DNA from: a virus
IMG/VR virus record: IMGVR_UViG_3300042731_006573
Location: 1-20,311 of that record
Strand: one strand, 5' to 3'
Length of the DNA: 20,311 nucleotides
In this document: one piece after another, positions 14,809 through 18,775 of the stretch
Numbering within the stretch: the stretch's first letter is position 1
How the letters are laid out: every line of letters begins with the position of its first letter
Translations under genes and position numbers: made by a program
The notes under the pieces: model-generated
What the model saw: only the letters and a program-made list of their open reading frames with translations
The model's database searches: none
What the model was told of the DNA's origin: nothing

Positions 14809-15077
14809 TAATACTCACCGCCTTCTATTATAGTATCGTCTTCCATCGTACTTTTGGCAACAAATTTACCAACAAGATCATTGTATATTAAAACCGCGCC
14901 TTTTTCTAAATTTGTAGCATCAACATCTGAAAGTTCAGATATTCTACCAACTGTTCCTACACCTAATTTTTGTACTTCAATCCTTTGGCCACTACTTGTT
15001 CGACCAACAATTGTATTGGTATTACTAGTGCTAATTCGCGCTGATAATGATTGCGAATTTTGAGAGATTGTAGTCAT
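14808..15077 (-). CDS. Small fibre-operon protein of unknown function
   Basis: This 89-residue protein is not assigned to a named family. It begins Ser/Asn-rich (TISQNSQSLSARISTSNTN), then IVGRTSSGQRIEVQKLGVGTVG (about 23-44), then a compact LSDVDATNLEKGAVLIYNDLVGKFVA segment (48-73) of a type that recurs in marine T4-like fibre proteins, ending in IIEGGEY. The C-terminal Gly-Gly-x-aromatic ending matches that of the next gene (DGGTF), suggesting a shared structural end or a constraint from the overlapping ribosome binding site. TAATG couples it on both sides. It is probably a virion component by context; the conclusion is inference. Confidence 0.6.
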   Translation of the reverse strand: MTTISQNSQSLSARISTSNTNTIVGRTSSGQRIEVQKLGVGTVGRISELSDVDATNLEKGAVLIYNDLVGKFVAKSTMEDDTIIEGGEY

Positions 15078-15412
15078 TAAGAAGTCCTAGTTACGCGTGG
15101 TGTTACTTCAAGTTGTCCTTCAACAACCCTTGTAACTACATTAGCTAATTCTATTTCTACATCGTATACAAACCGGCCGGCTTTCATAGCCCCAGTTTGC
15201 GCTGCAGTAAGAGTAATAGTTAATTCGCCATTTGTAGGAGTATTTGCAGTTACAGTAAAGTCGACAGCCGTAGAAGAACTATAAGTTTTTCGTATTTGTC
15301 CTCTGTAAATATATCCAGTCAAATCTACTAAAGCGCCATCTGAGTTTGATACAGTGACAACTGAAGAGAAATCAGATCCTTGATCAACCGTAAGATTAGC
15401 GTAAATTGCCAT
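15077..15412 (-). CDS. Beta-sandwich-like virion protein leading the fibre operon
   Basis: This 111-residue all-beta protein is first in the minus-strand fibre group. It starts AIYANLTVDQGSDFSSVVTVSN, followed by LVDLTGYIYRGQIRKTYSSS (about 28-47) and a second half FVYDVEIELANVVTRVVEGQLEVTP (about 82-106). The pattern of an initial strand, a DLTGY-x-QIR segment and a closing VxGxLxVTP strand resembles N-terminal domains of phage baseplate or fibre-attached proteins such as BppU-like modules, but I cannot confirm this. GGAGAA precedes the ATG at a normal distance. Two late boxes lie upstream at 15439 and 15509. A structural role is inferred from context and composition. Confidence 0.62.
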   Translation of the reverse strand: MAIYANLTVDQGSDFSSVVTVSNSDGALVDLTGYIYRGQIRKTYSSSTAVDFTVTANTPTNGELTITLTAAQTGAMKAGRFVYDVEIELANVVTRVVEGQLEVTPRVTRTS

Positions 15413-15438
15413 TTCAAATTCTCCAAATGATTTTATAC

Positions 15439-15446
15439 TATTTATA
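15439..15446 (-). promoter_or_regulatory. T4-type late promoter box TATAAATA (proximal, fibre operon)
   Basis: An exact TATAAATA on the minus strand lies 27 bases before the first fibre-operon start codon, giving a leader of about 20 bases that still contains the GGAGAA ribosome binding site. It is probably the main late promoter for the five fibre genes and perhaps for gp13 onward. Confidence 0.78.
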
Positions 15447-15456
15447 ATTTTTACTG

Positions 15457-15485
15457 TTTACAGATCTGGTCACTTGTGATATAAT
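15457..15485 (+). promoter_or_regulatory. Strong sigma70 / T4-early-type promoter for the heptose operon
   Basis: TTTACA at 15457-15462 (inside GTTTACA, matching the T4 early -35 GTTTAC pattern), then a 17-base spacer, then TATAAT at 15480-15485 preceded by TGA, an extended -10. Initiation would be near 15492, about 35 bases before the GTG start. It would let host RNA polymerase read the sugar genes early in infection. The sequence match is direct; the timing is inferred. Confidence 0.78.
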
Positions 15486-15492
15486 ATAAATA
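15485..15492 (+). promoter_or_regulatory. T4-type late promoter box TATAAATA for the heptose operon
   Basis: An exact TATAAATA on the plus strand shares its first base with the last base of the early -10 box, forming TATAATATAAATA. The operon therefore appears able to use both the host-type and the phage late polymerase form, with start points a few bases apart. Confidence 0.72.
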
Positions 15493-15508
15493 ACTGTATG
15501 CTTGATAG

Positions 15509-15516
15509 TATTTATA
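15509..15516 (-). promoter_or_regulatory. T4-type late promoter box TATAAATA (distal, within the heptose operon leader)
   Basis: An exact minus-strand TATAAATA lies inside the 5' leader of the plus-strand operon and touches its AGGA ribosome binding site. Transcription from it would run leftwards through the early promoter at 15457-15485 into the fibre genes. It may be a second fibre promoter and could also interfere with the sugar operon late in infection (inference). Confidence 0.65.
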
Positions 15517-15526
15517 GGATTTCTAT

Positions 15527-16387
15527 GTGATAAATGTAATTGGTGACATTATTATAGATGAATATTGGCAGGGTCGAACAACTAGACTTTCTCCAGAAGC
15601 TCCCGTCCCTATTGTAGAACTAGGTGCTAAACATATTTCGCTTGGTGGAGCTGCAAACGTATATTCAAATATAAAATCATTAACTAAAGAAGTTAATCTA
15701 TACGGTATGGTTGAAGAGCAATACCGTGAACATTTTGACGACACAAGTCATCTTATTGACGTACCGAAAATGCCAGTAAAAATTAGAGTATTATCGGACT
15801 CTCATTATGTTACAAGAATAGATGACGAAGAATATATGAATAATAATGAACTTATAGATCATTTTGTTTTATCATCTAGTTCATGGAAAAGAGACAATAT
15901 ATTTTTCATATCTGATTATGCCAAAGGAACAATTGCTCATCCAGATGCAATCATAAATTACTTAAATATTCATGAACAAAAAATAATAGTAGATCCAAAA
16001 TTAAGTTTAGACCATTATAAAAAAGTATGGATACTAAAGCCAAATAGAAAAGAATTTGAAGAATACGCTGGTAAATCAAGTAATATAAAAGGAATTCAAC
16101 AAAAAGCTTTTCAAGTATTAAAAGAATTAGAAATTGAAAATTTAATTATTACTCTATCAGAAGATGGAGTATTGTGGGTTTCAAAAGACAAATGGAAACA
16201 TATTCCAACAAAAGCAAAAAGCGTATATGATGTAACTGGCGCTGGAGATACTTTCGGAGCAGTTTTAGCTTGGTGTTTAGATCAAAGATGCGGGATAGAA
16301 GAATCTCTAGTAACTGCTAATAAAGCTGCAGCAAAAGCGGTATCAAAACAAGGTACATATGTAATTACTCAAAAGGATCTTAGATGA
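15527..16387 (+). CDS. hldA: D-glycero-beta-D-manno-heptose-7-phosphate kinase (HldE N-domain / HldA-like, PfkB family)
   Basis: This enzyme phosphorylates D-glycero-D-manno-heptose 7-phosphate at C1 using ATP, the second step toward ADP-heptose for LPS inner core. The 286 residues closely follow the kinase half of HldE: VIGDIIIDEYW (4-14), TRLSPEAPVP (19-28), GGAANV (40-45), SDYAKG (129-134), DPK (156-158), KPNRKEFE (171-178) and the PfkB signature VTGAGDT (236-242) with catalytic base Asp241. It is somewhat shorter than the E. coli domain (about 318), mainly between residues 60 and 85. GTG at 15527 is chosen because it is in frame with the first conserved strand and AGGA lies seven bases upstream; the ATG at 15525 runs straight into TGA. 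The TGA overlaps the next ATG as ATGA, so the two HldE halves are separate but coupled. Confidence 0.93.
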   Translation: MINVIGDIIIDEYWQGRTTRLSPEAPVPIVELGAKHISLGGAANVYSNIKSLTKEVNLYGMVEEQYREHFDDTSHLIDVPKMPVKIRVLSDSHYVTRIDDEEYMNNNELIDHFVLSSSSWKRDNIFFISDYAKGTIAHPDAIINYLNIHEQKIIVDPKLSLDHYKKVWILKPNRKEFEEYAGKSSNIKGIQQKAFQVLKELEIENLIITLSEDGVLWVSKDKWKHIPTKAKSVYDVTGAGDTFGAVLAWCLDQRCGIEESLVTANKAAAKAVSKQGTYVITQKDLR

Positions 16388-16782
16388 GGAAAGTTTTTAC
16401 AAATGGATGTTTTGATATTTTACACAGTGGCCACGTAGATTATTTGAAAAGATCTAAATTATTAGGTAATCATCTAATAGTTGGATTAAATTCAGATGCA
16501 TCTGTCAAAAGATTAAAAGGACCATCTCGGCCTATTAATAATCAAGAAGATAGAAAATTTGTATTAGAAAATTTATCTTGTGTTGATGAAGTTATTATTT
16601 TTGATGAAGATACTCCATACGAATTGATTCAAAGTATAAGACCTAATATTATTACAAAAGGTGGTGATTACAAAATTCAGGATGTAGTTGGACATGATAT
16701 AGTTCAATATACATATATAATTCCATACAAAAAAGGTTATTCTACTACCGATATTATTGAGAGGATAAATGATGAGACTTGA
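16384..16782 (+). CDS. hldC: D-glycero-beta-D-manno-heptose-1-phosphate adenylyltransferase (HldE C-domain / HldC-like)
   Basis: This enzyme transfers AMP from ATP to heptose 1-phosphate, giving ADP-D-glycero-D-manno-heptose and pyrophosphate. The 132 residues match the C-terminal half of bifunctional HldE: VFTNGCFDILHSGHVDYL (4-21) contains the nucleotidyltransferase HxGH motif (14-17). GLNSDASVKRLKGPSRP (34-50), the TKGGDYK segment (91-97) and the ending GYSTTDII (118-125) are all near-diagnostic. Its ATG overlaps the kinase stop (ATGA), reproducing the domain order of HldE as two adjacent polypeptides. This may reflect splitting of a fused ancestor or acquisition of a naturally split HldA/HldC pair. 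Identity is strong; activity is untested. Confidence 0.93.
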   Translation: MRKVFTNGCFDILHSGHVDYLKRSKLLGNHLIVGLNSDASVKRLKGPSRPINNQEDRKFVLENLSCVDEVIIFDEDTPYELIQSIRPNIITKGGDYKIQDVVGHDIVQYTYIIPYKKGYSTTDIIERINDET

Positions 16783-17137
16783 AGGATTTGTTGAAAAGGG
16801 CTGGGGACACGAATTAATATGGGCTACAAATGAAAAATATTGTGGCAAATTTCTAAAATTTAATGAAGGTGCTCAGTTTAGCATGCATTTTCATCGAGAA
16901 AAAGATGAAACTTGGTATGTTCTTGACGGCAAATTTATTGTAGAATGGATTGATACTAAAGACGCAACTTTACATAAGAAAGAATTGAATCAGGGAGATA
17001 CTTGGCATAATCCGCCATTACTTCCTCATAGAGTATATTGCATAATTGCTGGAAGTTTAATTGAAGTTTCTACCGCAGATTCCGTAGAAGACAATTATCG
17101 GGTTATGAAGGGCGATTCACAAAATGGGAAGATTTAG
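16769..17137 (+). CDS. Single-domain cupin, mannose-6-phosphate isomerase type II-like
   Basis: This 122-residue beta-barrel protein begins VEKGWGHELIWATNEKYCGK (8-27), followed by a metal site pattern HFH (40-42), Glu47 in EKDETWYVLDGK (44-55), and His87 in NPPLLPHRVY (81-90), then SLIEVSTAD (96-104). These match small cupins annotated as mannose-6-phosphate isomerase-like, which often accompany sugar-nucleotide genes; the true substrate is usually unknown. It overlaps the adenylyltransferase by 14 bases, and GAGGAT lies just before its first ATG. Its place inside a heptose pathway suggests an isomerase or epimerase acting on a heptose or a phosphorylated precursor, or a supporting role. It is not homologous to GmhA (SIS fold), so it cannot simply be called a replacement for the missing first step. 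Confidence 0.8.
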   Translation: MMRLEGFVEKGWGHELIWATNEKYCGKFLKFNEGAQFSMHFHREKDETWYVLDGKFIVEWIDTKDATLHKKELNQGDTWHNPPLLPHRVYCIIAGSLIEVSTADSVEDNYRVMKGDSQNGKI

Positions 17138-17849
17138 TTCTGATACTGTAGAAGCAAATACAATACAAAATAATCAAATTGCTTCTTATAATACTGGTCA
17201 ATATAAACCTAAAGGTGGAATGACTCAAGGGCCTTCAGAAGAACAAATGCGTATGCAAGAAATGCAAGCTTCTTGGCCTCAATCATTTCCAAAAGCAATT
17301 ATAGGACTTGATCGCGATGGAGTAATTAACTTTGATCGTGGTCATTATCTTACTAAAATTGAAGAATGGGAACCCATCCCTGGATCTCTTGAAGCTATTC
17401 GAATGATAAGATTAAAAGGATATAAAGTTGTTATTCTAACAAACCAAGGTGGAATAACAAAAGGTTTGCAAACTCACGATCAAGTAGAAGCTATTCATCA
17501 ACACATGATGAAAGTATTTGGTGAAGCCGGAATTTTTTCTATTGATGGATTATTTTATTCAGAATCATCGATGAAAGAAGATTATTATGCTAAACCAAAT
17601 ATTGGTATGTTTCATCGTGCAGAAAAAGAATTATTTAATGGTAAAAGATTCAAACAAGGTGGATTTTATGTTGGTGATAAAATGAGTGATCTAAAAGCAG
17701 CTTATAAAATTGGAGCAAAACCTATTTTAGTAAGAACTGGTCACGGACAAGAAACTGAACCATTACTCAATAAATTCTCTGCAGAGAAAATTCGTAAGAA
17801 AACTAAAGTATTTGATTCTTTATTAGATTTTGCAAAGGCATTAAAATGA
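17124..17849 (+). CDS. gmhB: GmhB-like HAD phosphatase (heptose-1,7-bisphosphate 7-phosphatase) with N-terminal extension
   Basis: The expected reaction removes the 7-phosphate from D-glycero-D-manno-heptose 1,7-bisphosphate. HAD motifs are complete: GLDRDGVIN (61-69) with Asp63/Asp65, ILTNQGG (104-110) with Thr106, Lys157 in AKPNIGM (156-162), and YVGDKMSD (182-189) with Asp185/Asp189. Two things are odd. First, the Cys/His zinc-binding loop of E. coli GmhB (between motif II and Lys) is replaced by YSESSMKEDYYAKP with no Cys. Second, about 56 residues precede the usual start; they are Gln/Asn/Met-rich and look disordered. The next ATG inside (residue 33) has poor ribosome binding site spacing, so the long form is kept. 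It overlaps the cupin by 14 bases. A HisB-N-like histidinol-phosphate role is less likely given the neighbours. Confidence 0.86.
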   Translation: MGRFSSDTVEANTIQNNQIASYNTGQYKPKGGMTQGPSEEQMRMQEMQASWPQSFPKAIIGLDRDGVINFDRGHYLTKIEEWEPIPGSLEAIRMIRLKGYKVVILTNQGGITKGLQTHDQVEAIHQHMMKVFGEAGIFSIDGLFYSESSMKEDYYAKPNIGMFHRAEKELFNGKRFKQGGFYVGDKMSDLKAAYKIGAKPILVRTGHGQETEPLLNKFSAEKIRKKTKVFDSLLDFAKALK

Positions 17850-18751
17850 TTATTGTAACAGGTGGTTTCGGATTTATTGGTTCTAATATTATTCGTAACT
17901 TAAATAAAAGAGGTCAAACAAATATATTTGTTGTTGATGATCTTACAAATGGCCATAAATTTAAGAATCTAGCCGATTGTTACTTTAATGATTATTTTGA
18001 TGTTGATTCATTTTTTGATGAATTTCCAGAACATCTTTGGAAACAAGTAAAAGAAATTTATCATGAAGGAGCAATTTCTTCTACTACAGAATGGAATGGT
18101 AAACTTGTAATGGAAAGAAATTATAAGTTTTCTGATAAACTTTTGCAAAAAGTAATGGAACATTGCATTTCATTTTCATATGCTTCATCAGCTTCTGTTT
18201 ATGGAAATACAACTCACTTTACTGAAGATCAACAGCTAGAACCTTTGAACATGTATGCATATTCAAAATATATGTTTGATAAGAAAATTGAAAATCTTAT
18301 GAAACTTGAATGGTATGAAAAGTCGCCATTAAGAATTCAAGGGTACAGATATTTTAATGTATATGGAGATGGTGAAGAACATAAAGGTGATCAAGCATCT
18401 CCAATTGCAAAATTTACTAAACAAGCAAAAGAAACTGGTATTATCGAAGTTTTTGAAGGATCAGAAAATTTTAGAAGAGACTTTGTTAATGCCGAAGATC
18501 TTGCTATAGTAAAAATAGAAATGCTAGAACGAAGTATTTCTGGTATTTTTAATGCTGGATCTGGCGTGGCTGTATCTTTTATGCGAATAGCTGAATTAAT
18601 AGCGCGCAAATATAATGCACAAATAAAAGTTGTTCCTTTTCCAAATCATCTTAAAAATCATTATCAAACTTTTACACAGGCTAATACAAGTAAATTACAA
18701 ACTGTGGGATGCCCAGTATTATTTAGATCAGTAGAAGATTATTTAAGATAA
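17846..18751 (+). CDS. hldD: ADP-L-glycero-D-manno-heptose 6-epimerase (HldD)
   Basis: This enzyme inverts C6 of ADP-D-glycero-D-manno-heptose to give ADP-L-glycero-D-manno-heptose, the donor for LPS heptosyltransferases. The 301 residues follow HldD closely: NADP-binding GGFGFIGSN (6-14), VVDDLTNG (29-36), HEGAISSTTEWNGK (73-86), YASSASVYG (112-120), catalytic MYAYSKYMFD (136-145) with Tyr137 and Lys141, RYFNVYG (168-174), EEHKGDQAS (177-185) with Lys180 matching the second catalytic Lys of E. coli, and FEGSENFRRDFV. These positions distinguish it from generic SDR sugar epimerases. ATG overlaps the upstream stop (ATGA-type). It is the last gene of the plus operon, 52 bases from the convergent carbamoyltransferase. 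Confidence 0.94.
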   Translation: MIIVTGGFGFIGSNIIRNLNKRGQTNIFVVDDLTNGHKFKNLADCYFNDYFDVDSFFDEFPEHLWKQVKEIYHEGAISSTTEWNGKLVMERNYKFSDKLLQKVMEHCISFSYASSASVYGNTTHFTEDQQLEPLNMYAYSKYMFDKKIENLMKLEWYEKSPLRIQGYRYFNVYGDGEEHKGDQASPIAKFTKQAKETGIIEVFEGSENFRRDFVNAEDLAIVKIEMLERSISGIFNAGSGVAVSFMRIAELIARKYNAQIKVVPFPNHLKNHYQTFTQANTSKLQTVGCPVLFRSVEDYLR

Positions 18752-18755
18752 AAAA

Positions 18756-18775
18756 AGGGACCCATCAGGGTCCCT
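18756..18775 (-). terminator. Rho-independent terminator of the carbamoyltransferase gene
   Basis: A perfect 8-bp stem AGGGACCC/GGGTCCCT with a four-base loop. On the minus strand it is followed by at least six T residues, the classic intrinsic terminator form, and lies about 28 bases after the stop codon. On the plus strand it is followed by AAAAGTTTG, so it would be a poor terminator for the hldD end unless it acts in both directions. Confidence 0.88.

Follow-up and report, generated by a model that had tools for sequence, protein, structure and literature searches.

The window analysed here is a 20.3-kb viral fragment from a phage that is T4-like, Kyanoviridae-like and marine, and it has no close DNA relatives in the phage collection. 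Its minus strand carries a T4-like virion operon and its plus strand a divergent operon, and the 114-base gap at 15413-15526 is the exact space between the fibre-assembly and kinase genes with which these begin (Table 1). The fibre-assembly protein occurs in 120 phage records, cyanophages and pelagiphages for the most part. The plus-strand operon covers most of the enzymes for ADP-L-glycero-D-manno-heptose: a split HldE, in which kinase and adenylyltransferase are two separate proteins, together with GmhB-like and HldD-like enzymes and a cupin besides; the GmhA isomerase was not seen within the window. The kinase matches PfkB in Pfam (2e-27) and rfaE_dom_I in NCBIfam (3e-70, below the family cut-off), while rfaE_dom_II (adenylyltransferase) and heptose_epim exceed their NCBIfam cut-offs and GmhB (phosphatase) falls under its own. 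The operon probably changes a surface sugar of the host or of the virion.

Three smaller features were seen along the window. An out-of-frame ATG with TGA directly after it overlaps the kinase start (15524-15538, ATGTGATAAATG). A strong terminator-like hairpin, AGGGACCC...GGGTCCCT, with its T run on the minus strand, sits at 18756-18775 between the convergent epimerase and carbamoyltransferase genes. Next to the major capsid gene, the minus-strand ORF at 1056-2141 contains a stretch of about 12 aspartates within its highly acidic N-terminal half.

Table 1. Genes and promoter sites at the divergent junction (window coordinates)
Feature	Position	Strand	Details
Virion operon		-	capsid, prohead, portal, tube, sheath, terminase, neck and fibre genes, named from translations
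Fibre operon gene 1, L-shaped-tail-fibre-assembly-like protein	15077..15412	-	PHROG 3304, 1e-23
Proximal late box, fibre operon	15439..15446	-	exact TATAAATA; predicted +1 15433
Early promoter (sigma-70, T4-early class), sugar operon	15457..15485	+	gTTTACA-17-TGaTATAAT; predicted +1 15492
Plus late box, sugar strand	15485..15492	+	exact TATAAATA; predicted +1 15498
Sugar-operon leader, 35 bases	15492..15526	+	holds distal minus box and AGGA-type ribosome site
Distal late box, fibre operon	15509..15516	-	exact TATAAATA, inside sugar leader; predicted +1 15503
Sugar operon	15527-18751	+	ADP-heptose route enzymes
Sugar gene 1, heptose-7-phosphate kinase-like (HldE domain I)	15527..16387	+	GTG start
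Remaining sugar genes	16384..18751	+	heptose-1-phosphate adenylyltransferase, cupin, GmhB-like phosphatase, ADP-heptose 6-epimerase

The preliminary description had counted one early and three late promoters in the gap, and all four sites are read there directly in the sequence. The early promoter consists of TTTACA (15457-15462), a 17-base spacer ending in TGA, and TATAAT (15480-15485), and it is the sole 12/12 match to TTTACA-N16/18-TATAAT in the whole window. The first T of the plus late box is the last base of the early -10. With an overlap this close, the "four promoters" are better described as four recognition sites, which span 78 bases (15439-15516), or about one RNA polymerase footprint. 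The proximal minus box precedes the fibre-assembly ATG (15412) by 26 bases. The distal one is only 10 bases away from the kinase GTG (15527), ahead of it, and is oriented away from the kinase, leftward over the sugar promoters; its nesting in the sugar leader, also part of that description, is confirmed and conserved. Because this box is so near the kinase yet points away from it, it serves as a warning that annotating late promoters by proximity alone can pick the wrong operon.

No unusual RNA fold was found in the sugar leader (fold z-score 0.04). A leader hairpin formed from the TATAAATA/TATTTATA inverted repeat was rejected, since transcripts from the predicted starts would begin where the first arm ends or beyond it, and their folding is no better than that of shuffles. 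A dimer operator built on the same repeat is unlikely, with 16, 17 and 18 bases between the arms and unrelated loops.

Motif classes and conservation

Across 11 clade sequences, 103 of 132 copies of TATAAATA (78%) stand at most 120 bases upstream of a same-strand start, as against 6-38% for ten permuted 8-mers in the same test, and the octamer is a genuine late-promoter motif in this clade. It also lies within 110 bases upstream of the fibre-assembly homologue in 46 of 49 distinct regions. Homologues of gp55, searched with a Melnitz-1 query, are present in every longer relative tested (G004, G006, G007, G010, HTVC008M, Mosig, S-PM2, P-SSM2, Syn9, T4 and RB49). One of these, G004, also bears the kinase. 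The window is a 20-kb fragment on which gp55 is not expected, and its phage is presumed to encode gp55, gp33 and gp45. The boxes resemble T4-type late promoters (gp55/gp33/gp45) in being exact copies of TATAAATA upstream of virion genes, with gp55 in relatives. They differ in that two of the three are nested with, or oppose, an early promoter.

The -35 element of T4 early promoters is GTTTAC (PMC1524935), and it is present here, since a G precedes TTTACA. The 17-base spacing, the TGn and the TATAAT -10 are likewise those of the T4 early class. The window promoter differs from that class in having a T tract (TTTTT, 15448-15452) at -40 to -44, which is AT-rich but not A-rich as in an UP-like element, and in the late box that overlaps its -10. 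TTTACA-17-TATAAT recurs upstream of genes elsewhere in the clade. The earlier assignment of the motifs to early and late classes is upheld. Among distant kinases, 42 of 63 distinct upstream regions hold a sigma-70 promoter of at least 11/12 within 80 bases, against 0.7% in the control, which marks the early promoter as a family habit of the sugar kinase and favours early expression of the gene. The possibility that the plus TATAAATA is a normal part of clade early promoters was discarded, as the other TTTACA-17-TATAAT promoters precede different sequences.

Two peculiarities of early promoters were met along the way. In many distant relatives (L108-L180), a near-perfect kinase TTGACA-17-TATAAT sits at the extreme end of the preceding gene, its -10 only a few bases before the ATG. 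In a few early promoters, an inverted repeat of 7-10 bp encloses the -35 hexamer in its loop, e.g., ATAGGCAGGG-TTTACA-TTCCCTGCCTAT, which gives the look of a promoter overlapped by a terminator or an operator (G001:13515-13543, L182; G007:72080 and 89485, L253 and L254; RB49 30148). Such a stem around the -35 is not enriched across all early promoters.

The promoter cluster is not due to chance. When the gap was shuffled 20,000 times with its dinucleotides preserved, at least three late boxes appeared once, and none of 1000 shuffles of the whole window placed that many within a 114-base span; an 11/12 sigma-70 match arises in 117 of 5000 gap shuffles. The viral collection yields two other contigs with this junction, G001 (kinase 77% identical) and G002 (65% identical), as well as a contig, L007, that is identical to the window there. 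When window, G001 and G002 are aligned, the invariant columns number 24/24 in the late boxes, 11/11 in the early hexamers and 32/79 in the rest of the gap. For the late boxes this gives a Fisher p of 2e-8, an optimistic value as the alignment is itself anchored on these motifs. The plus late box and the distal minus box are identical in all three. At this junction, 23-25 bases separate the early -10 from the distal box. The flanks of the plus late box score as is typical of the clade in the window and in G001; those in G002 score under about three quarters of clade late boxes, and the box is absent in G003 and G005. In view of its absence from G003 and its weaker flanks in G002, the plus late box could instead be an AT-rich discriminator.

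Opposing starts and the proposed exclusion

Transcription starts were predicted from T4 consensus positions, with the early element at -12 to -7 and the late one at -13 to -6. The start of the distal minus box falls 11 bases from the early start and 5 bases from the plus late start, so by consensus positions these starts, which face each other on the two strands, and the polymerase footprints around them overlap. T4 and E. coli values are assumed for the footprints and for the strength of the late promoters. Where promoters overlap, they interfere chiefly by competing for polymerase (PMC6593788). The preliminary description had proposed that transcription from the distal box would pass antisense through the early promoter and could thereby turn down the sugar genes. 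The first half follows from position, as any transcript from this box must run antisense over the sugar promoters. The second half is not supported as worded: with starts only 5-11 bases apart, polymerase complexes would overlap, making competition likelier than antisense elongation. Opposing promoters able to suppress one another in cis are known elsewhere, for example pR/pE in phage 186 and PR/PRE in lambda. Those lie 320-340 bases apart, whereas the starts in the window are nearly superposed and belong to different temporal classes.

From these positions we infer start sites, timing, exclusion and net effect as follows. Early in infection, host sigma-70 polymerase would start the ADP-heptose operon rightward from gTTTACA-17-TATAAT. 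Once the late sigma factor (gp55 type) and the sliding clamp become active, leftward transcription of the fibre operon would start from the two minus TATAAATA boxes, while the plus TATAAATA that overlaps the early -10 would maintain some rightward sugar transcription. Since the four sites occupy about one polymerase footprint, complexes bound there would exclude each other. When the distal minus box is in use, the sugar promoters would be blocked by promoter competition, with antisense passage playing a lesser part. The net effect would be strong sugar expression early, reduced yet not abolished late, with the proximal minus box guaranteeing expression of the fibre genes. This nested early/late cluster with mutual exclusion is the reading that we favour, and we consider it somewhat probable. 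The late turn-down of the sugar genes in the preliminary description may thus occur but would be incomplete: the conserved plus-strand late box should keep the genes on, so the operon is predicted to be transcribed late as well, in line with what has been suggested for RB49 and S-PM2. Judged from sequence, strong early and reduced late sugar transcription is the most likely behaviour.

The face-to-face layout was sought in 16 sequences by scanning for early promoters that face a late box at most 40 bases away, with an ATG filter on the gene start. An opposing late box just behind an early -10 was found only at sugar-kinase promoters, in 5 of the 16 sequences including the window. The scan itself returned G001, G002, G003 and G005 (0.01-0.02 expected each by random shift). 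The window promoter was found separately, being outside the ATG filter because its kinase begins with GTG, versus ATG in G001, G002 and G003. The same scan found no opposing early/late pair in T4, RB49, S-PM2, HTVC008M, Melnitz-1, G006 or G007, and it refutes a general T4-like habit of opposing early and late promoters. The parts are of known kinds, and it is the nested arrangement that seems special to the sugar-kinase junction.

Related promoters, origin of the distal box and alternative readings

In RB49 and S-PM2, a middle mode has been proposed to arise from early and late promoters that overlap (PMC2984593), which substitute for it in phages without MotA/AsiA. The window matches these in the same-strand overlap of a sigma-70 early promoter with a TATAAATA-type late promoter (TATAATAAATA in S-PM2, TATAATATAAATA in the window); here the overlap joins 15480-15485 and 15485-15492 and is kept in G001 and G002. 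In contrast, the window promoter drives an acquired sugar operon and not a homologue of a T4 MotA-controlled gene. It thus works like the RB49/S-PM2 type without being a member, since the gene downstream is a heptose kinase. It also adds the opposing late box close to the starts, which neither of those phages has by the same scan.

The RB49/S-PM2 middle-type genes, and further same-strand overlaps at the S-PM2 site, at Melnitz-1 47407 and at G004 3113, suggest an alternative in which the junction holds a dual early/late promoter and nothing more. The sugar operon would then be on throughout, and the fibre operon would have redundant tandem promoters packed beside it with no regulatory effect; such tandem boxes do occur without a sugar operon. 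This is possible, though we would not expect it, as starts on opposite strands and this close together can hardly be independent, and as the opposing box is retained in G003 and G005 despite the absence of the plus late box.

Tandem TATAAATA pairs lie upstream of the fibre-assembly gene in 11 of its 49 distinct regions. In eight of these the upstream gene is on the same strand, there is no sugar operon, and the boxes are 15-41 bases apart; at the three sugar junctions they are 70-72 bases apart. The 12-base upstream flank of the distal box, ACATAGAAATCC, matches 10/12 bases of ACATAGAAAACG, the flank of the outer of two tandem boxes that precede this gene in G009, a sister contig without the sugar operon there; this is the best match outside the G001 orthologue. 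Because of this common flank, the distal box is probably the ancestral outer late promoter of the fibre operon, now nested in the sugar leader, with the sugar promoter between the members of the pair. What speaks against a purely local origin is that the kinase -10 is closely followed by a minus late box in G003 and G005 too, where the minus-strand neighbours differ from those of the window.

These observations bear on the idea of an early-off switch, in which the distal box would have evolved so that late transcription from it silences the sugar operon as the virion genes are activated. The nested position is conserved, the same layout recurs at the G003 and G005 kinases beside other minus-strand neighbours and with no plus late box, and how T4 halts early transcription is still unexplained (PMC2988021). 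We nevertheless find this unlikely: given the plus late box, sugar transcription is expected to go on late, and the distal box seems to descend from a tandem pair older than the sugar operon here. A selected cis switch at the sugar-kinase junction is doubtful but merits somewhat more credence; in it, mutual exclusion would let the late promoter inside the early leader stop or dampen the early promoter once late transcription sets in. If true, it would be a local early-shut-off device travelling with an auxiliary sugar island to different late-gene sites (window, G003 and G005), and no middle promoters are recognised in the cultivated members of this phage group. Marine T4-like phages are without recognisable middle promoters (PMC2984593; PMC9004378).

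Finally, the relative arrangement of the sites could have arisen without selection on it, if islands inserted beside late genes keep the nearest late box and genome compaction alone places it in the kinase leader. Gaps are small in these phages; in the 45-49% relatives only some 25 bases separate the genes, so that the minus late box touches the start codon of the kinase or extends into it. Such neutral packing is nonetheless very improbable, as the spacing and all boxes are kept in three phages despite the strongly diverged rest of the gap, an argument limited by the possibility that every box is kept for the sake of the operon it serves. The favoured reading, mutual exclusion within a nested cluster, would make this conserved site a small, testable model for the timing of an acquired metabolic island relative to the virion genes.

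A comparable sugar island is found in the Prochlorococcus phage P-SSM2, with a Nol-like carbamoyltransferase, heptose adenylyltransferase, kinase, cupin-type 'cysteine dioxygenase' and epimerase. It too adjoins tail-fibre genes, but its gene order and orientation differ, and its kinase is mid-operon. In G003, the neck-gene region is interrupted by two extra ORFs, L010:2252-2971, which is on the opposite strand and has a GIY-YIG-like start, and L010:3691-4359; both are likely mobile endonucleases.
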